The notes: generated by a model not told the origin, from the letters alone. 36,851 nucleotides of DNA from Candidatus Sulfopaludibacter sp. SbA3 (GCA_945865815.1 CAMBFR010000030.1:1-36851); one strand, 5' to 3'. Shown: positions 17,174 through 26,246, counted from the stretch's first letter. Numbers and translations: made by a program.

Positions 17174-17536
17174 ATGAAAGAAATTCTTCAATCCATAGCC
17201 GACCGCATCATTTCCGCCGACGATCGCGGGGTCACGCCGCGCGATCTGAACGTTGCCGACGGCATCCTCTCATATATGCACCTCATGCCCGCGCATACGC
17301 GGAGAGCCGTGACACAACTCATCTGGCTTTTTGAATACCTGCCGCCCGTCATCATACTGAAACCGCGCCGGTTTTCGCGTCTCGGCCCGCGGGACCAGGA
17401 CCGATACATCGAAGCCTGGGGCACAAGCCGTCTTGGCTTGCTGCGTACCGGATTTCGCGTCCTGAAGACTCTCGCCCTGAGCACGTACTACCAGAATTCC
17501 GCCTCGTGGAAGGCGATCGGACACATGGAAGAATGA
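17174..17536 (+). CDS. Small helical partner of GMC oxidoreductase
   Basis: This 120-residue protein starts MKEILQSIADRIISADDRG. It ends with RPRRFSRLGPRDQDRYIEAWG-like, LRTGFRVLKTLALSTYYQNS and SWKAIGHMEE elements. This layout matches the helical N-terminal segment of long-chain-alcohol-oxidase-type GMC proteins (ending with a WxxxGY-like turn) and gluconate 2-dehydrogenase subunit 3-like proteins. Its stop overlaps the GMC start as ATGA at 17533-17536, so the two are probably made together and form one enzyme. No signal peptide or Tat motif is seen. I chose ATG 17174; a TTG at 17144 would extend it. Confidence 0.7.
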   Translation: MKEILQSIADRIISADDRGVTPRDLNVADGILSYMHLMPAHTRRAVTQLIWLFEYLPPVIILKPRRFSRLGPRDQDRYIEAWGTSRLGLLRTGFRVLKTLALSTYYQNSASWKAIGHMEE

Positions 17537-19008
17537 TCTCTACCCTGCCGACAGCCTCGGAAGAAAGAGCGCAGGTCTGCATCGTCGGATCCGGCGCGGC
17601 AGGAAGCGTCCTGGCGTACGAACTGGCGGACGCCGGCCTCGACGTCATCCTGCTCGAAGAGGGTGAGGAGTTAGGCAAGGCCGACTTCACCCAGCGGGAA
17701 GGCGAGCTGATCCCGCGCATTTACGCCGATGCCGGATCACGTGCGACTCACGACGCCGCGATCCCGATTCTCCAGGGGAAGTGCCTGGGCGGCACGACTG
17801 TCATCAACCACGGTATCTGCTTTCGCACTCCCGAACGGATTCTCGACGAGTGGCGCCGCGAATTCGGTGTATCGGGACTAAGCCTCGACACGCTTCAGCC
17901 TCACTTCGAAAGAGCCGAGAAGATGATCGGGGCGAGAAGACTCGGTCCCGCCGAAATCAACCCAAACAACCAGGTACTCAAGCGTGGCTGCGAGCGCCTG
18001 GGAATGAGCGGCGACGTGATGACGCTGAACATGCAGCCGTGCGGTTCCTGCGGCCCGTGTAATCTCGGGTGTCCGGAAGACAAGAAAGGCAGCACGCTGG
18101 TGAATTACCTGCCCGCCGCGGCAAAGCGCGGAGCAAGGATCTTTCGAAATTGCCGCGTGCAGAGTGTCCAGGTCGAAAACGGCCGGGCCGCGGGCGTTAC
18201 GGCAGGTTCGTTCCGGGTTCGCGCCGGAGTTGTGATCATTGCCGCGGGCGCGGTGAACTCTCCGGCAATCCTGCTGAGAACGGGCCTTGGCAATGCGATT
18301 CCGGCGATCGGGTCGGGGGTGTCGCTGCATCCGCTTTTCCCGCTGCTTGTGTTTTCGGATACGCCTCTCCATAGCATGAAGGGACTTCCGCACAGCTACT
18401 ATTGCGACGAGTTTTTCAGCGCGGACGACTTTCTATTTGAGGGCCTCTTCGTCTCGCCTGGCGTTTTCGCCTCCGGAATGGGCGGTTTCGGGCGCCAGCA
18501 TCGCGAGTTCATGAAACAGCTTCCCAGGCTCGGCCTGACCTATGTCCAGCTCCGCGACAGGACCCGCGGCCAGGTTCGCCTGGCTGGCGGCGAGCCGGTG
18601 GTTCGATACACGATGAATCAGGAGGACCGCGAACGCGCGCGAAAGGCTTTGAAGCTGCTGGCGGCGATCTGCCTCGAAGGCGGGGCGGCAAAGGTGGCGA
18701 CAACCCACGTGAAGCCGGTCGTCATGCGCGACAAGAGCGAGATCGCGCAGATTGACCAGGCCATGTTTCGTCCGAACGACCTCACGGTGTTTTCGGCACA
18801 TCCTCAAGGCGGCTGTCCGATGGGAGCGAATCCGCGCCGCAGCGTTGTGGATTCGCAATGTGCGGTCCACGGCGTGGCCGGGCTTTACGTGTGCGATGCG
18901 AGCGTATTCCCCTCACCTGTCGGAATCAACCCGATGATCTCGATCATGGCCCTGGCGTCGTTGACGGCGGAGCGGATTATTGGATCCTCCGTGGGCGCGG
19001 GGCTTTAG
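17533..19008 (+). CDS. GMC-family FAD oxidoreductase (long-chain alcohol oxidase/steroid oxidase-like)
   Basis: This 491-residue flavoenzyme has the FAD-binding VCIVGSGAAGSVLAYEL (GxGxxG at 19-24), then CLGGTTVINHGICFRTP. The C-terminal GMC block is SAHPQGGCPMGANP through AGLYVCDASVFPSPVGINP. A Cys cluster, C170-x2-C173-x2-C176-x3-C180-P, spaces its cysteines like a ferredoxin; relatives often have a related Cys/Gly-rich loop here. It probably oxidises an alcohol, sterol or sugar, with an unknown electron acceptor. The last five codons and the stop (18991-19008) are supplied by palindromic repeat copy B, so the natural end may have been altered. It overlaps the preceding small gene by 4 bases. 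Confidence 0.88.
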   Translation: MISTLPTASEERAQVCIVGSGAAGSVLAYELADAGLDVILLEEGEELGKADFTQREGELIPRIYADAGSRATHDAAIPILQGKCLGGTTVINHGICFRTPERILDEWRREFGVSGLSLDTLQPHFERAEKMIGARRLGPAEINPNNQVLKRGCERLGMSGDVMTLNMQPCGSCGPCNLGCPEDKKGSTLVNYLPAAAKRGARIFRNCRVQSVQVENGRAAGVTAGSFRVRAGVVIIAAGAVNSPAILLRTGLGNAIPAIGSGVSLHPLFPLLVFSDTPLHSMKGLPHSYYCDEFFSADDFLFEGLFVSPGVFASGMGGFGRQHREFMKQLPRLGLTYVQLRDRTRGQVRLAGGEPVVRYTMNQEDRERARKALKLLAAICLEGGAAKVATTHVKPVVMRDKSEIAQIDQAMFRPNDLTVFSAHPQGGCPMGANPRRSVVDSQCAVHGVAGLYVCDASVFPSPVGINPMISIMALASLTAERIIGSSVGAGL

Positions 19009-19130: not shown

Positions 19131-19841
19131 ATGAAAAACAAAGCGGCTTTCTACGATCTCGACGGAACTCTCTTATCCTGCAACCTGGTGACAACGTATG
19201 CGTACTACGCTCGCAACGATCGGTCGATCGTCAAGAGCCTGTATCAGATCACGAAAGTTGCGCTCAGCGTGCCCCTGCTGTTCGGACTGGACTTCTATTC
19301 GCGGACACTCTTCAATGTTTTCTTCTTTCGCGCTTACCGCGGAATGCATCGCGACCGGCTGGTTGGCCTGGCCGACGATCTTTTCGAGGTGACCCTGAAC
19401 CCGTCAATCTATCCGAAGGCCCAGGCGCTGATCGACTCCACCCGCAAGCAGGGCTATCGCAATGTCCTGGTTACGGGAGCGCTTGATTTCACGGTTCGTC
19501 CGATTGCGCTTCATTTCGGAATCGACGAAGTCATCTGTAACCGGCTCGAGTTCAAGAATCACGTGTCTACGGGACGGGTGTTGCCGCCGCTGCTGGCGGA
19601 GACCGAGAAGGCGCGCATCATCCAGGAATTTGCCGCCAAGGAAGGCATCGATCTCAAGGAATCATGCGCATTTTCCGACAGCACGTCCGATATACCGATG
19701 CTCGAGATAACCGGCAATCCGGTGGCAACGAATCCGACGCGCCGGCTGCGAAAGCATGCCATGCAAAAAAACTGGCCCATCATAGAACTGAAGGAAAGCG
19801 ATTCGAAGCTGCCTCCATTCCTTCAGGCGGCAGCCCTGTAA
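19131..19841 (+). CDS. HAD-IB family phosphatase (SerB-like)
   Basis: This 236-residue phosphohydrolase has motif I AAFYDLDGTLL (nucleophile Asp9, acid Asp11), motif II NVLVTGALDF, a Lys near AETEKARII, and motif IV CAFSDSTSDIPML. A hydrophobic stretch in the cap (about 50-75, SVPLLFGLDFYSRTLFNVFF) may touch the membrane. The HAD-IB group includes phosphoserine phosphatase-like enzymes often found with acyltransferases and lipid genes. The stop shares one base with the next start (TAATG at 19839-19843). In this operon its substrate is more likely a phosphorylated lipid intermediate than phosphoserine; that is inference. Confidence 0.86.
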   Translation: MKNKAAFYDLDGTLLSCNLVTTYAYYARNDRSIVKSLYQITKVALSVPLLFGLDFYSRTLFNVFFFRAYRGMHRDRLVGLADDLFEVTLNPSIYPKAQALIDSTRKQGYRNVLVTGALDFTVRPIALHFGIDEVICNRLEFKNHVSTGRVLPPLLAETEKARIIQEFAAKEGIDLKESCAFSDSTSDIPMLEITGNPVATNPTRRLRKHAMQKNWPIIELKESDSKLPPFLQAAAL

Positions 19842-21505
19842 TGTCTTACGGTAACGGTTACGATCCGGATAAACTCGCCGAAAAGTGCGTCGTGCATCTC
19901 GACGGAAACTCGGCCCCAAGGGCGCTCTTCTGCGGCGAAGACCTGATCGAGTGCAAACTGCCGGCAGGAACGCGCGTCATCTACGCCAAGCCGCCCATTC
20001 CGGGCCTGCTGGACCGCAGGGCTGCGATTCGGCGCGCCCTCGACAATCCGGAAAACATGGACCCGCTCGAGTCGTTGCTCCAGCCCGGCATGAAACTGAC
20101 CATCGCAATCGACGACATTTCGCTTCCGCTGCCCATGATGGCTCTGCCCGACATTCGACAGACCATCCTGGAAATCGTGATCGGCATGGCTGCCGCAAAA
20201 GGCGTCACCGATATCCATATCGTGATCGCAACATCGTTCCACCGCAGGCTGACTGCTCCGGAAATGAAACGATGCGTCGGCGCGAAGATCTTCAGCGAGT
20301 TCTATCCCGGCCGTTACTACAACCACGACGGGGAAGATCCGAACGGGATGGTCGAGATTGGAAAGACGGCGCACGGAGAACGCGTCCGGCTCAATCGAAG
20401 GGCGGCAGAATCGGACCTGCTGATCTACGTCAACATCAACCTTGTTCCGATGGACGGCGGGCATAAATCCGTCGGCGTCGGCCTCTGCGATTATCCGACG
20501 CTGCAGGCGCACCACACGCCGCAGGCAATCCTCGGCTCCGACTCGTACATGGATCCACGACGCTCGGAACTGACAAAATCCTGCAATCGCATCGGCAAGA
20601 TGATCGACAAGCACCTGAAGGTGTTTCATATCGAAACGGCCTTCAACAACCGGATGTTCGACGACGTCTCGGCATTTCTCGGGCGCAACGAGGACACGTA
20701 CTCGAGCTTCGACCGGACGAAGCTGGGGATTGCGAAGTTCGCACTGTCAAAGATGTCGGCAAAAACGAAGCGAAAGATCTATTTCAGCATGCCCGCGCCT
20801 TATGAGCTGATCGGCGCTCACGCCGGCGAGACCGAAGCCACTCACGAAAAAATCCTCCAGTACTGTTACGACCAGTACTGCATTCCGGTCCAGGGCCAGT
20901 CCGACGTTGTGATCACCGGTATCACTTTCGTCTCGCCATACAATGTGAACTCGATCATGAACCCGTTGCTGGTGCGCGTGATGGCTCTTGGGTACTTCTT
21001 CAATTTCTACAGGAACATGCCGATCGTGAAAAAGAACGGCGTGATGATCGTCACCCACCCCTGCTACGATGAATGGGATCCGCTATTTCACCCGTCGTAT
21101 ATCGAATTTTTCAACCGCATTCTGCCCGAAACGAGAGACTCCGTGGTGATGCAGCAGAAATACGAACAGGAATTCGCCACGAACCCGACATACATCAAGA
21201 TGTATCGCGAAGGAAACGCCTACCACGGCGTTCATCCTTTCTATATGTGGTATTGGGCGGAGAACGGACAGAAACATATCGGCAAGGTAATCGTTGTCGG
21301 AGCAAGTAACAAACGAGTGCCGGCAATGCTGGGCTGGGAGACTGCGAAGAATATGGATGAGGCGCTGGAAATGGCGCAATCCTACGTTGGACGAAAACCA
21401 AGCGTCAGCCTGCTGCATTTTCCGCCAATCCTGATGACCGACGTCCTGGGCCAGCCCGAGACTATCGGGAACACCGCGCAGGATCCGGTTGGGACGGCAC
21501 GCTAA
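19841..21505 (+). CDS. LarA-like (DUF2088, lactate racemase N-terminal domain) protein
   Basis: This 554-residue protein has a LarA-type core: IHIVIATSFHRRLTAPEM (His134), YNHDGEDPNGMVEIG, and DGGHKSVGVGLCDYPTLQAH with Lys209, the position of the cofactor-bearing Lys in lactate racemase. Departures from LarA as I recall it are that DxTRP reads DDISLP (Leu95 at the Arg), and that the PHxxAGFSGG stretch is shortened to PMDGGH, losing a His. The last 250 residues contain ITGITFVSPYNVNSIMNPLL and GVMIVTHPCYDEWDPLFHPS. No larB, larC or larE is in the window. The reaction is unknown, perhaps an isomerase or hydride transfer. Start TAATG overlaps the HAD stop, and the stop overlaps the next start in the same way. 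Confidence 0.82.
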   Translation: MSYGNGYDPDKLAEKCVVHLDGNSAPRALFCGEDLIECKLPAGTRVIYAKPPIPGLLDRRAAIRRALDNPENMDPLESLLQPGMKLTIAIDDISLPLPMMALPDIRQTILEIVIGMAAAKGVTDIHIVIATSFHRRLTAPEMKRCVGAKIFSEFYPGRYYNHDGEDPNGMVEIGKTAHGERVRLNRRAAESDLLIYVNINLVPMDGGHKSVGVGLCDYPTLQAHHTPQAILGSDSYMDPRRSELTKSCNRIGKMIDKHLKVFHIETAFNNRMFDDVSAFLGRNEDTYSSFDRTKLGIAKFALSKMSAKTKRKIYFSMPAPYELIGAHAGETEATHEKILQYCYDQYCIPVQGQSDVVITGITFVSPYNVNSIMNPLLVRVMALGYFFNFYRNMPIVKKNGVMIVTHPCYDEWDPLFHPSYIEFFNRILPETRDSVVMQQKYEQEFATNPTYIKMYREGNAYHGVHPFYMWYWAENGQKHIGKVIVVGASNKRVPAMLGWETAKNMDEALEMAQSYVGRKPSVSLLHFPPILMTDVLGQPETIGNTAQDPVGTAR

Positions 21506-23115
21506 TGATGATGTATCGAAGTCCGTGGCGCTTTAATCCTCTTAGCGGCGAGTACGAAGCCACCGGGCAAGAACCCCTTCGAGGAACCGGCGAGATTTCG
21601 GCAATTGATGCCTTCAGCAACAAGACGGTTTTCATTCTTGGCGCGACAGGCTTTGTCGGAAAGGTCCTGCTGGCAATGGTGCTCGACCGCTTCCCTGAAC
21701 TGAAACACCTGGTTGTGCAGGTGCGCCGCAAGCGCTCGGTTTCCGGCGAGCATCGTTTTTATAACGAGATCCTTCAGTCCCCCCCTTTGCAGGCCGTCGT
21801 TCAGAAGATCGGCCTGGAAGAACTTCGCCGCAAAGTGACGATCGTTGAGGGCGACGTCAACGAAAACCTCTGTGGCGTGGAGCCCGAAGTAGTTGCCAGG
21901 CTCAAGGGTAAAGTGGATGTCGTCGTCAACCTCGCCGGACTCGTTGAATTCGATCCCCCGCTGACCGACTCGCTGGTCCCAAACGTCTATGGCGTCCAGC
22001 ATCTGATCGACCTGGTGGGATTGCTCGGAGCGAAGCTGGTGCATATCTCCACCTGTTATGTCGCCGGGAAAAAGGACGGCCGGATTGCGGAAGACATTCC
22101 CATCGTCGATTACTTTCCAAAGCAGGCCGAAGGCGACAGCCGGCCCTTCAATGTCGATGAAGAACTGAAGTGGTGCGAGCAATTCGTCGAAGAAACAAAA
22201 GCCGCCACGAAGGACGCGGGTGTCCGCGTCATGCGAGAACATCTCCGGGAGGGCGGCATGGCGCGCGCCGACTCGTGGGGCTGGATCAATACTTACACGT
22301 ACACGAAGAGCATGGGCGAGCAGCTCATCGCCAGGACTCCGGGGATCCAGTATGCGATCGTGCGGCCGGCCATTGTGGAATCTTCAATGCGATTCCCTTT
22401 CCCGGGATGGAACGAAGGACTCACGACATCTGCTCCACTTGTCCTGATGGGGGGGGAGGGAGTCAAAGGGTGGCCGGTTCGAAAAGACGGGCCGCTGGAA
22501 ATCATTCCCGTCGACCTCGTTGCAATGGGTATTCTCATCGTGACCGCGGCCGTGCTGTGCGGGAAGAACAAGCCCGTATACCACCTCGCGACCGCCGACG
22601 AGAATCCGGTGATGTTGCCCCGGCTGGTGGCCTTTCTCGGCATGAATTCGCGTCACAAGCACAAACACAGGAAAACCGGCAGCAAGCTGGCCAATCTCTG
22701 GAAAACCTACGTCGAAACCCAGGTCATCACGGTTGAAACACAGGAGGCCCGGCGCGCCCGTCTGCACAGCGGCCTTGATGTGATCCACGCCACGCTGAAC
22801 TTCGCGAAGACGCTCCTGGGACCGGGCAAAGTGGATTCGTATTTGAAAAGCCTGCGCACGACGCGCCGGCAGATCCGGCAACAGGAGCAGACTCTCGACA
22901 AATTCCTGCCGTTCATGATCCACAACAGCTTCGTGTTCGAAACGAAGAATATTCGCGAGGCCGTAAGCATGCTGACCAGCGAAGATCGCAAACGGCTCGG
23001 ATGGGATGCCGAAGCCATCGATTGGGCCGATTACTGGGTGAATATTCATACCAAGGGCATCGAAAGATGGATCCGGCCCGTGTTCACCACTCAACGCAAG
23101 CAAGTCAGTGCATGA
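21505..23115 (+). CDS. Fatty-acyl-CoA reductase-like extended SDR
   Basis: This 536-residue protein has a 40-residue lead, then the nucleotide-binding TVFILGATGFVGKVLLAMVL (GxxGxxG at 46-52). The male-sterility/NAD_binding_4 features KLVHISTCYVAG and the catalytic pair Tyr264/Lys268 (TYTYTKSMGEQ) follow, with IVRPAIVESSM after them. The C-terminal 180 residues are unlike simple SDRs and end with a WADYWVNIHTKGIERWI block like the FAR C-terminal domain. By family it reduces an acyl-CoA or acyl-ACP to aldehyde or alcohol with NADPH. It starts at ATG 21505 (TAATG) and ends in ATGA with the next gene. The exact substrate is inferred from family only. Confidence 0.85.
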   Translation: MMMYRSPWRFNPLSGEYEATGQEPLRGTGEISAIDAFSNKTVFILGATGFVGKVLLAMVLDRFPELKHLVVQVRRKRSVSGEHRFYNEILQSPPLQAVVQKIGLEELRRKVTIVEGDVNENLCGVEPEVVARLKGKVDVVVNLAGLVEFDPPLTDSLVPNVYGVQHLIDLVGLLGAKLVHISTCYVAGKKDGRIAEDIPIVDYFPKQAEGDSRPFNVDEELKWCEQFVEETKAATKDAGVRVMREHLREGGMARADSWGWINTYTYTKSMGEQLIARTPGIQYAIVRPAIVESSMRFPFPGWNEGLTTSAPLVLMGGEGVKGWPVRKDGPLEIIPVDLVAMGILIVTAAVLCGKNKPVYHLATADENPVMLPRLVAFLGMNSRHKHKHRKTGSKLANLWKTYVETQVITVETQEARRARLHSGLDVIHATLNFAKTLLGPGKVDSYLKSLRTTRRQIRQQEQTLDKFLPFMIHNSFVFETKNIREAVSMLTSEDRKRLGWDAEAIDWADYWVNIHTKGIERWIRPVFTTQRKQVSA

Positions 23116-24092
23116 AGCGATTCCTCGTTACAGGCGCCACCGGTTTCCTCGGCACACATCTGGTTGAGACACTGCTCGGGCTGAATCCGGACGCCGAGAT
23201 CCGAATCCTTACCCGCGGCAGGAACCCCTGGCCAGGAAGGCCACGCGTGGAAGAGATTCACGGCGACATTCTTGATCGGGCTGCCGTCGAGAAAGCCGTG
23301 CAGGGCGTTGAAGGAGTTTTCCATCTCGCCGGCTTTGTCACTCGCGACCAGCGCCGGTCTTCCGAGCTGTTTGACGTCCACATCGAAGGCACGCGGAACG
23401 TGTGCGAGGCCGCAGTTCGGATGGGCTCCCCGCGGGTTGTGGTTTCTTCATCTTCTGGAACCATCGCCGCCAGCCGGGTGCCGGCCATGCACAACGAAGA
23501 CTCGCCATTCGTGAACGAACTCGCCGCGCATTGGCCGTACTACCTCAGCAAGATTTACCAGGAAAAGCTCGCGCTGTCCTTTCATGCACACAATGGACTG
23601 CCCGTTATCATCGTCAGTCCGAGCCTCCTGCTCGGTCCAGGCGATGAACGGCTTTCGTCGACCGGCGATATCCAGTTGTTCCTGAGCGGAAAGATTCCCA
23701 ACGTCCCGGCCGGCGGCCTGAACTTTGTGGACGTGCGCGATACGGCCGAAGCCCTGGTGCGGGCGATGGAAGTGGGCGTCCCGGGCCGGCGATATCTCAT
23801 CGGGGCGCACAATATGGTGCTGAAGGAATTTTTCGGCCTTCTCGAAAAGCTGAGCGGCGTAAAGATGCCTCGCCTGGAGATGCCGGAGAGCTGGTCGCGC
23901 GCCGGCGCCGGCGTTCTGCGCGGGCTCTATACTTTCGTCGGGGCCAAGTTTCCGCTCGATGATCCGACTGTCGAGATGGCCTATCGATTCTGGTATTTCG
24001 ATAACTCCCGCGCGAAATCGGAACTCGGGTTGAATACGCGCCCGGCGGAAGAAACCCTCCGCGATACGATTGCGTATCTGCGGAGACATTAA
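23112..24092 (+). CDS. NAD(P)-dependent epimerase/dehydratase-family SDR
   Basis: This 326-residue extended SDR has the Rossmann motif LVTGATGFLGTHLVE (GxxGxxG 8-14), VFHLAGFVT, VVVSSSSGTIAAS, and the catalytic pair Tyr143/Lys147 (WPYYLSKIYQE). IIVSPSLLLGPGDER and LNFVDVRDTAEALVRAM follow. It resembles the dihydroflavonol reductase, 3-beta-HSD and HpnA group, which act on ketones, sterols or sugar nucleotides. The start overlaps the reductase stop as ATGA (23112-23115), so it closes a four-gene coupled operon. Acting one step from the acyl reductase is likely; the substrate is unknown. Confidence 0.86.
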   Translation: MKRFLVTGATGFLGTHLVETLLGLNPDAEIRILTRGRNPWPGRPRVEEIHGDILDRAAVEKAVQGVEGVFHLAGFVTRDQRRSSELFDVHIEGTRNVCEAAVRMGSPRVVVSSSSGTIAASRVPAMHNEDSPFVNELAAHWPYYLSKIYQEKLALSFHAHNGLPVIIVSPSLLLGPGDERLSSTGDIQLFLSGKIPNVPAGGLNFVDVRDTAEALVRAMEVGVPGRRYLIGAHNMVLKEFFGLLEKLSGVKMPRLEMPESWSRAGAGVLRGLYTFVGAKFPLDDPTVEMAYRFWYFDNSRAKSELGLNTRPAEETLRDTIAYLRRH

Positions 24093-24179: not shown

Positions 24180-25091
24180 ATGAGCATTGTCGCGATCCTC
24201 AACCCAAAATCTGCCAATGGCAATGCCGCCAGGACATGGGCGAAGGTCCGCGCGCATTTACCGGAATCGGTTCGGACCATTGAAACCATGGGGCCCGGAC
24301 ACGCCACCGAGTTGACCGCAGATGCGATCAGGGCGGGCGCGAAAACGATCGTTGCCGTAGGTGGAGACGGAACCATCAACGAAGTCGTGAACGGTTTCTT
24401 CGACGATGGCCGGGCGATCACCCCGGATGCGAAGCTGGCGATCGTTCCACACGGAACCGGCTCGGACTTTCAGCGCGTGCTGAATCTTCCCTGGGAAGAG
24501 GAAAAAGCGGCGCGGCTGATCCTTACAGAAGAACCTCGCATGGTCGATGTTCTCCGCGTCCTTTACACCGGGCACAACGGCAGGCTTACCACGCGTTATT
24601 CGATCAACGTGACGAGTTTTGGTATGGGAGGAGAAGTGGCGGCGCGCGTGAATCGCTCCTCCAAACTGCTGGGTGGGGGCATCGCCTTCCTGGCCGCGAC
24701 GCTTCGGACTGCACTGACGTTTTCCGGCGTTGCGGCGCGAGTGACTCTCGACGATGAAAAGACCATCGAGGCGAGAATCACGAATGTAGCGGTCGGGAAT
24801 GGCCAGTATCACGGGGCAGGCATGTGGGTCTGTCCCGGCGCATCCCTCGAAGACGGCCTGCTGGATGTGACCGTCATCGAATACCTTTCCGCGTTTCAGA
24901 TGTTGCGGAGTCTTCCAAGCCTCTACAACGGCGCGATCTACCAACACCCGAAAGTGCGGGCCTTTCGCGCAAAGCGGGTCAAGGCGGAGTCGAGCCAGCC
25001 GTCGTTCATCGAGATCGACGGAGAACCGGTGGGCCGGCTTCCGGTCGAGATTGAAATCGTTCCGCGGGCGCTCCGAATTCTTATGAGATGA
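24180..25091 (+). CDS. Diacylglycerol kinase-family lipid kinase (YegS/DgkB fold)
   Basis: This 303-residue kinase has the catalytic-domain signature VAVGGDGTINEVVNG (GGDGT at 61-65), then AIVPHGTGSDFQRVLNL in place of the common GT.N. The beta-sandwich half holds INVTSFGMGGEVAARVNRSS, NGQYHGAGMWVCPGASLEDG and LLDVTVI. By family it phosphorylates a lipid such as diacylglycerol or a sphingoid base. It lies 87 bases after the SDR operon on the same strand and is followed by a ferritin-like gene with 20 bases between. Its position behind acyl reductase genes supports a lipid role. ATG 24180 has no clear Shine-Dalgarno. Confidence 0.88.
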   Translation: MSIVAILNPKSANGNAARTWAKVRAHLPESVRTIETMGPGHATELTADAIRAGAKTIVAVGGDGTINEVVNGFFDDGRAITPDAKLAIVPHGTGSDFQRVLNLPWEEEKAARLILTEEPRMVDVLRVLYTGHNGRLTTRYSINVTSFGMGGEVAARVNRSSKLLGGGIAFLAATLRTALTFSGVAARVTLDDEKTIEARITNVAVGNGQYHGAGMWVCPGASLEDGLLDVTVIEYLSAFQMLRSLPSLYNGAIYQHPKVRAFRAKRVKAESSQPSFIEIDGEPVGRLPVEIEIVPRALRILMR

Positions 25092-25111
25092 TTTCCGCAC
25101 GGGAGGTTCAC

Positions 25112-25567
25112 ATGAAAAACAAGCAGACAAAGCAGGTTGTTGAAACACTCAATCACATCCTCGAAATGGAGCTCGCCGGGACGATCCACTACACCCATTA
25201 CTCGTTCATGGTGTACGGCTACAATCGCATTCCGATCGTGAAGTGGCTTGGGGAACAGGCGACGGAGTCGATGGCCCACGCTCAGGCTGCCGGGGAGATG
25301 GTCACGCAACTGGGCGCGCACCCGTCATTGGGAATCGGACCGCTCCTCGAGACCCACAAGCACGACATCGGCGACATTCTCCGCGAATCGCTGGGACACG
25401 AGAAAGCAACGCTGAAGTACTACGAGAAGCTGCTGAAACTCGTCGAGGGAAACAACGTCATGCTCGAGGAGTACGCGCGCGAACACATCTACATGGAGAT
25501 GCAGCACATCGGAGAAGTGGACAAAATGCTCCGCCGGCCCGGCGACATCGAATCCTTCGAGGGATAA
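25112..25567 (+). CDS. Bacterioferritin-like protein
   Basis: This 151-residue four-helix ferritin-like protein carries likely di-iron ligands: Glu18/Glu20 region in ILEMELAGTIHYTHY, Glu and His in TESMAHAQ, Glu in SLGHEKATL, and Glu and His in IYMEMQHIGE. These match the bacterioferritin layout. MVYGYNRIPIVKWLGEQA replaces the usual second-helix text, so haem binding (usually Met52) is uncertain. By family it oxidises and stores iron. GGGAGG 6 bases before ATG 25112 makes the start secure. Repeat copy C begins 36 bases after the stop. Confidence 0.85.
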   Translation: MKNKQTKQVVETLNHILEMELAGTIHYTHYSFMVYGYNRIPIVKWLGEQATESMAHAQAAGEMVTQLGAHPSLGIGPLLETHKHDIGDILRESLGHEKATLKYYEKLLKLVEGNNVMLEEYAREHIYMEMQHIGEVDKMLRRPGDIESFEG

Positions 25568-25670: not shown

Positions 25671-26246
25671 TCAGGAGATGATTTCGCGCAGGTTGGGCGC
25701 GTGCCTGATAACAATGATCGCGAGCATGACGTAAGCGAAAAGACCCGCCGCCGTTCCCTGCAGGACCAGCACCAGAGTGGCGATCACAAACATCGTGGTG
25801 AGTGACGCGATTGCCCCTTCCTGACGCCATCGCATGCGTTTGCCAACGGCTCGAAGTATCGCGTACAGCGGCAGGCATGGGATCGTAAGCCATGGCTGCA
25901 GGAACAGCAGGACACCCACTGTTGTGGCCACACCCTTGCCGCCGTTGAATCCCGTGAACGGGCTCCAGCAGTGCCCCATAACCGCTGCGATACCGAGAAC
26001 CCACTGCACCGAAGCCGGCTCACCGCGCGAGAGCAGCATCAGGGCGACGAAGCCCTTGAAGATATCGCCGGTCAGGGTGAGCACGGCCCGCCATTTCGAG
26101 GACACGCGCAGCACATTGTTGAAGCCGGGATTCTTCGACCCCACCTTCGTGATATCGATGCCTGTCCCGATCATCGCGATCTTCGCGAACGGAATGGCGC
26201 CGATGAAGAAACTGATCGCAACTTTCCAAATGATCGAGAGTGTCAT
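25671..26246 (-). CDS. plsY: PlsY-type acyl-phosphate:glycerol-3-phosphate acyltransferase
   Basis: PlsY moves an acyl group from acyl-phosphate to glycerol-3-phosphate, starting phospholipid synthesis. The 191-residue membrane protein has five or six helices and the three family motifs. These are IGAIPFAKI then VGSKNPGFNNVLR (usually GSGNPGATN), the TGDIFKGFVALML segment, and GHCWSPFTGFNGGKGVATT. The change from GATN to GFNN in motif 1 is unusual and may mark a subgroup. No plsX is adjacent. ATG 26246 lacks an obvious ribosome site. It may be read through from the upstream adenosine-kinase-family gene across the 110-bp palindromic element. Confidence 0.88.
   Translation of the reverse strand: MTLSIIWKVAISFFIGAIPFAKIAMIGTGIDITKVGSKNPGFNNVLRVSSKWRAVLTLTGDIFKGFVALMLLSRGEPASVQWVLGIAAVMGHCWSPFTGFNGGKGVATTVGVLLFLQPWLTIPCLPLYAILRAVGKRMRWRQEGAIASLTTMFVIATLVLVLQGTAAGLFAYVMLAIIVIRHAPNLREIIS

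Follow-up and report, generated by a model that had tools for sequence, protein, structure and literature searches.

Organization of the cluster and its match to the elb operon

The window analysed here is a stretch of 36,851 nucleotides from Candidatus Sulfopaludibacter sp. SbA3 (GCA_945865815.1 CAMBFR010000030.1:1-36851), and the system in question is a cluster of 4 genes at positions 19131-24092, which we name after their counterparts in the elb operon of Myxococcus xanthus (Table 1). Reading of the open frames confirmed the gene overlaps given in the original prediction: TAATG at 19839-19843 between the HAD hydrolase and the LarA-like gene, TAATG at 21503-21507 between the latter and the reductase gene, and ATGA at 23112-23115 between the reductase gene and the gene for a short-chain dehydrogenase/reductase (SDR). 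Pfam and NCBIfam profiles assigned the proteins to the 4 families proposed there; the Sterile domain of the reductase scored 32.8 bits in Pfam, below the cut-off of 35.4. The lipid kinase and the plsY gene noted nearby were both found; the kinase gene starts at 24180, 87 bases downstream of the SDR gene. Two other identities were rejected, as the SDR is HpnA-like but its 209 bits fell well short of the 368 required for HpnA, the hopanoid sugar epimerase, and the HAD protein scored far under the cut-off for histidinol phosphatase.

Table 1. Genes of the cluster and its possible partners in the window.
Feature	Position	Strand	Profile evidence
HAD-IB hydrolase, ElbB counterpart	19131-19841	+	PF12710 1.1e-32; TIGR01490 128 bits (cut-off 98)
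LarA-superfamily protein (LarAH14/15/16), ElbC counterpart	19841-21505	+	Lar_N PF09861; NF052592 808 bits (cut-off 740)
FAR-type acyl-thioester reductase, stand-alone version of the ElbD N-terminal domain	21505-23115	+	NAD_binding_4 PF07993 159 bits
Extended SDR (Epimerase/3beta-HSD type), ElbE counterpart	23112-24092	+	PF01370 1.3e-34
YegS/DAGK-type lipid kinase, probable partner	24180-25091	+	PF00781, PF19279
plsY-like glycerol-3-phosphate acyltransferase, possible partner	25671-26246	-	

The original prediction knew of no described pathway with this exact set of genes, but the elb operon is one. According to an ether-lipid review (PMC9131029, citing Lorenzen 2014), the operon elbA-elbE of M. 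xanthus is involved in the biosynthesis of ether lipids and plasmalogens; elbA and elbE encode proteins of the NAD-dependent epimerase/dehydratase family, elbB a HAD protein, and elbD a protein composed of a fatty acyl reductase (FAR), an acyl-CoA synthetase (ACS), an acyl carrier protein (ACP) and an acylglycerol-phosphate acyltransferase (AGPAT), while elbC is labelled 'unknown function'. In the myxococcal ElbD protein the domain order is FAR (NAD_binding_4 and Sterile), AMP ligase, ACP and acyltransferase (AT). Since the published layout and the neighbours match the myxococcal locus, we assigned the window genes as elbB-elbC-(FAR part of elbD)-elbE, which by sequence is a rearranged, split version of the ether-lipid elb operon.

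The split concerns ElbD, which was not found as a single FAR-ACS-ACP-AT protein in the window genome but is distributed over 2 loci. The window reductase aligned to residues 4-557 of Myxococcus ElbD with 35% identity, and a 903-amino-acid ACS-ACP-acyltransferase on another contig (G000:C1:111416-114124, minus strand) aligned to residues 559-1393, so that the 2 proteins jointly cover ElbD end to end. When the window FAR was compared with the Myxococcus genome, ElbD gave 217 bits in its best stretch, against 44 bits for the next match, a frame of 1039 amino acids. The elbB-type HAD gene adjoins the elbC homolog and an ElbE-type SDR gene follows the reductase gene, in the same order as in M. xanthus. 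Unlike the M. xanthus operon, the window cluster has no ElbA-type SDR gene in front, is followed by a lipid kinase gene, and belongs to an Acidobacteriota lineage. Acidobacterial elb operons have been reported for subdivision 4 (PMC10087280), and elbD homologs in sponge and Black Sea metagenome-assembled genomes (PMC9426513, PMC11868695); the split form of ElbD and the exchange with AGPS described below are new to us.

Conservation across phyla and within Acidobacteriota

At least 586 relatives of the LarA-like protein were confirmed in GTDB genomes, and the neighbouring genes were counted at the best 80 loci, which represent Acidobacteriota, Myxococcota, 'Deltaproteobacteria', Planctomycetota and a few others; Myxococcaceae are over-represented in this sample and the counts are not independent. 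A HAD gene adjoined the LarA-like gene at 66 of the 72 loci where this position was visible, a reductase gene was located nearby at 49 of 66, and an SDR gene at 49 of 57. The association of the 4 genes is thus more than chance. The block is conserved in distant phyla, which is the support that the original prediction had asked for, and the 4 proteins probably work together.

The gene order varied between the groups. In gp13-type Acidobacteria (family F5) the order was FAR, ACP-AMP-ligase-acyltransferase, PlsY, HAD, LarA-like, SDR and kinase, and in Myxococcus it was SDR, HAD, LarA-like, one protein of about 1475 amino acids, and SDR. The ElbE-type SDR gene followed the gene for ElbD in Myxococcota, and most acidobacterial loci contained a lipid kinase gene after the SDR gene. 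A record titled Comamonas sp. KCTC 72670 (BNCN01000002.1, locus L060) contained an elb operon of the Myxococcus kind, flanked as at loci L057 and L058, and is apparently mislabelled or contaminated. Another record, titled Acidimicrobiia (VFZE01000053.1, locus L041), contained a cluster resembling the one in gp13 Acidobacteria, with a LarA-like protein 66% identical to that in the window, which represents either a transfer or a binning error.

Within the phylum, 396 Acidobacteriota genomes were surveyed for ElbC, for FAR and for alkyl-dihydroxyacetone phosphate (alkyl-DHAP) synthase (AGPS), of which ElbC exceeded the cut-off in 38 genomes, whereas FAR-like matches were obtained in 54 and AGPS-like matches in 30. 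An ElbD-type reductase was present in 35 of the 38 genomes with ElbC. Among the other 3, locus L221 of genome G245 reads DAGK-ElbD-HAD-ElbC, and the contigs of G253 and G309 are only 5 kb. Conversely, 38 genomes contained an ElbD-type reductase, 35 of them together with ElbC, 1 with an ElbC fragment (G411) and 2 with AGPS (G003 and G168). Divergent ElbC-like proteins (32% to 40%) in G261 and G176 were encoded next to ElbD and a kinase.

FAR-like proteins of other size classes never coincided with ElbC or AGPS, and those of about 780 to 830 and about 1170 amino acids, whose host genomes lack both, were set aside as a different system. In class relatives, a FAR-type protein of about 815 amino acids was encoded in another cluster (L207:3687-17031 and L208:3380-15795), which also contained genes for an SDR, 2 AMP ligases, an enoyl-CoA hydratase-like protein, a DAGK-type kinase and an acyltransferase-like protein. 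Neither ElbC nor AGPS was present where a FAR protein of this size occurred.

Exchange of ElbC and AGPS, and features of ElbC

In the animal-type route to ether lipids, the ether bond is formed by AGPS, which puts a fatty alcohol in the place of the acyl group in acyl-DHAP; an SDR then reduces the ketone. We compared the window genome with 10 members of its family, which gave a set of 11 genomes (81% to 100% complete). All 11 genomes contained the ACS-ACP-AT protein, and 10 had a FAR match, which in one genome was a fragment. ElbC was identified in only 3 genomes, the window genome G000, G001 and G006, whereas the other 8 had no close ElbC and instead encoded an AGPS-type protein of about 596 amino acids, which matched guinea-pig AGPS (4bby) with 2.3e-168 and Dictyostelium AGPS with 4.3e-99. 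None of the 11 genomes contained both genes and none lacked both (Fisher p 0.006, kinship ignored). The AGPS proteins of the sister genomes scored 969 to 1375 bits, whereas a search for AGPS in the window genome returned, as its best hit, a partial match to an FAD-oxidase-like protein at 86 bits.

At 3 of the AGPS-type loci (L202, L203 and L204), genes for AGPS and a classical SDR were located near those for HAD and FAR in a neighbourhood equivalent to that of the window, and ElbC and ElbE were absent. The flanks were collinear, with genes for plsY, a rhomboid-like and a radical-SAM-like protein at all 3 loci and an aminotransferase gene at L202 and L203; L203 also contained the lipid kinase gene. 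The FAR-HAD unit was inverted relative to the flanks at L202 and L203, which shows that the swap involved a rearrangement. Furthermore, G006 clustered with its AGPS-type genus in the ACS tree (support 96/96) but with G000 and G001 in the FAR tree (support 87/91), and this discordance indicates that the locus type either changed at least 2 times or was transferred. A different arrangement was observed in G010 (L206:7695-10059), where the FAR gene does not follow HAD but overlaps the last part of a small gene for a desaturase-like protein with the motif HRYGAHRMF.

The sister genomes, with AGPS and an SDR at the equivalent locus, thereby resemble the animal-type route, which consists of FAR1, AGPS and alkyl-DHAP reductase and corresponds to MXAN_1674-1676 in M. 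xanthus, with MXAN_1676 as the AGPS gene. The window genome shares the FAR-type reductase and an SDR with this route, but has the LarA-like protein in place of AGPS, and its SDR is of the extended type. The exchange suggests that ElbC stands in for AGPS.

The window ElbC passed the curated profile for LarAH14/15/16 (Table 1), and the nearest solved structures by sequence were 9q2u (6.8e-33) and 9q3j (6.1e-27), which are LarA homologs (LarAHs) with a single catalytic histidine. An AlphaFold model (pLDDT 87, pTM 0.87) gave 19 significant Foldseek matches with LarA-family structures on top, the best being 9q3k (E 3.2e-33; TM-score 0.72 by query and 0.83 by target length). In an alignment to Lactiplantibacillus plantarum LarA, D92 corresponded to Asp72, H134 to the catalytic His108, K209 to Lys184, which links the nickel-pincer nucleotide, and H225 to the nickel-binding His200; these 4 residues were invariant in 37 ElbC homologs. 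The position of the second catalytic residue, His174, was never occupied by a histidine in the 37 sequences, but by Asn200 or a shortened loop; the alignment puts an invariant Asn200 there, although the loop lengths differ. Arg75 of LarA is replaced by Leu95.

With the His174 and Arg75 positions lost, ordinary racemization is not plausible, and a role as a common 2-hydroxy-acid racemase was rejected, whereas binding of the nickel-pincer nucleotide by ElbC is plausible. We consider ElbC to be probably a nickel-using protein and a candidate nickel-pincer-nucleotide enzyme. Genes for the cofactor proteins LarC (G000:C94) and LarE (G000:C33) were identified in the window genome. The proteins LarA_Sp and LarA_Bw (9q2u, 9q3k, 9q3j) share with ElbC the LarA fold, the nucleotide-linking lysine, the nickel-binding histidine and a single catalytic histidine, but have a lysine at the Arg75 position, and are encoded next to glycolytic genes rather than lipid genes (PMC12611868). 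It has been proposed that LarAHs lacking one of the histidines might run another hydride-mediated reaction (Desguin et al. 2020, PMC7583248). We found no link between LarA and ether lipids in the open-licence literature, a scope within which its absence is not proven. The window genome also encodes a second LarA homolog (L155:54-1310, G000:C106) with the classical EPHFFAGFSGG motif, which is probably an ordinary racemase.

Proposed role in ether-lipid biosynthesis

Our preferred interpretation, to which we assign a probability of about 0.65, is that this is an elb-type ether-lipid cluster with ElbD split into 2 genes, in which ElbC and ElbE do the job of AGPS and its reductase. We infer that the organism makes ether lipids and that ElbC participates in the formation of the ether bond. 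The product is probably an unusual lipid, as originally proposed; the fatty alcohol or aldehyde also named there would most likely be an intermediate of ether-lipid synthesis, and not the end product or the source of an aldehyde-derived head group. The 903-amino-acid protein would activate the fatty acid and keep it on its own ACP, and the window FAR would reduce the ACP-held acyl group to a fatty aldehyde or alcohol. If ElbC and ElbE take the place of AGPS and SDR with alcohol supply and acyl activation unchanged, their joint task would be to make the alkyl-glycerol unit by joining the alkyl chain to the backbone of glycerol (phosphate). Adjustment of the phosphate and addition of the second chain may then fall to the HAD phosphatase together with the lipid kinase, PlsY and the acyltransferase.

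More tentatively, ElbC may be a nickel-pincer-nucleotide-dependent alkyl ether synthase that provides a second, non-homologous route to the glycerol ether bond with no net oxidation, a possibility we do not consider the likelier outcome. A cofactor of the LarA type removes a hydride from a carbinol carbon and then returns it, which makes a scheme attractive in which the sn-2 hydroxyl of glycerol would be transiently oxidized by hydride removal. The fatty alcohol would replace the neighbouring substituent at C1 and the hydride would be returned, for which a single histidine would suffice; alternatively, the hydride might be given to a hemiacetal-type intermediate formed from the fatty aldehyde. 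We know of no precedent in the LarA superfamily for the exchange step at C1.

Ether-lipid synthesis in M. xanthus requires elbD and possibly elbE; elbB insertions reduced the ether lipids there, and elbD restored them only in part (PMC9131029). This partial rescue also fits a need for the intervening elbC. Several observations nevertheless weigh against the role proposed for ElbC. The elbB mutant effects were ascribed to polarity on elbD (PMC9131029), and the consulted literature describes neither an elbC mutant nor an activity of ElbC. The complementarity is based on 11 related, partly incomplete genomes, and 2 of the 3 genomes with ElbC are 81% to 88% complete. ElbC and AGPS occur together in 8 of the 396 Acidobacteriota genomes, and likewise in M. 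xanthus. The substitution of Arg75 by leucine means that cofactor binding is not assured, and the LarAH14 protein of Frankia was inactive on all 7 of the 2-hydroxy-acid reactions tried (PMC7583248).

It is conceivable, but in our judgement unlikely, that the cluster makes ether lipids while ElbC has no part in the ether bond itself and instead supplies or modifies a precursor, for instance by interconverting glycerol-phosphate, DHAP and glycerate-type acceptors or by acting on a head group, with the ether bond being formed by ElbD or ElbE. LarA relatives do work on small hydroxy acids (PMC7583248, PMC11770544), single-histidine LarAHs have been tentatively tied to carbohydrate metabolism (PMC12611868), and the strong proven phenotype belongs to ElbD (PMC9131029). 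However, in the sister genomes that contain HAD, FAR and ACS-ACP-AT, it is AGPS and an SDR that replace ElbC and ElbE, which implies that the missing function is that of AGPS and the reductase. The presence of this dedicated ether enzyme at the equivalent locus in genomes without ElbC also makes it quite improbable that the cluster serves to make fatty alcohols, wax esters or some other neutral lipid that has nothing to do with ether lipids. Alcohols and esters could be made with just a FAR-type reductase and an acyltransferase, but the window FAR is an ElbD domain, and ElbD has been linked to ether lipids through mutants. We give equally little credence to the idea that the exchange in this family arose by chance, through loss of genes and gaps in the assemblies. 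The small number, incompleteness and common ancestry of the 11 genomes and the 8 other Acidobacteriota with both genes would agree with it, but the equivalent locus with collinear flanks, the repeated change or transfer of the locus type with G006 nested in an AGPS-type genus, and the finding that all 38 genomes with an ElbD-type FAR contain ElbC, an ElbC fragment or AGPS do not.

How M. xanthus proceeds from a fatty acid to an alkyl ether lipid is described as unknown (PMC9131029), and ElbC, a nickel-pincer-family protein swapped with AGPS at one locus, is a concrete candidate for an AGPS-free ether-bond step in aerobic bacteria. If true, this would provide a role for a LarA group without known activity. 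ElbC and the split FAR may also serve as markers for the debated producers of ether lipids and branched glycerol dialkyl glycerol tetraethers (brGDGTs) among soil Acidobacteriota, where surveys with full-length ElbD queries may overlook split versions.

A gene for a GMC-family FAD oxidoreductase (17506-19008) is located upstream of the cluster on the same strand, but was rejected as a member of the operon as it was unmatched in the compared relatives. Downstream, a ferritin-like gene (25088-25567) starts before the lipid kinase gene ends, so that the two overlap.

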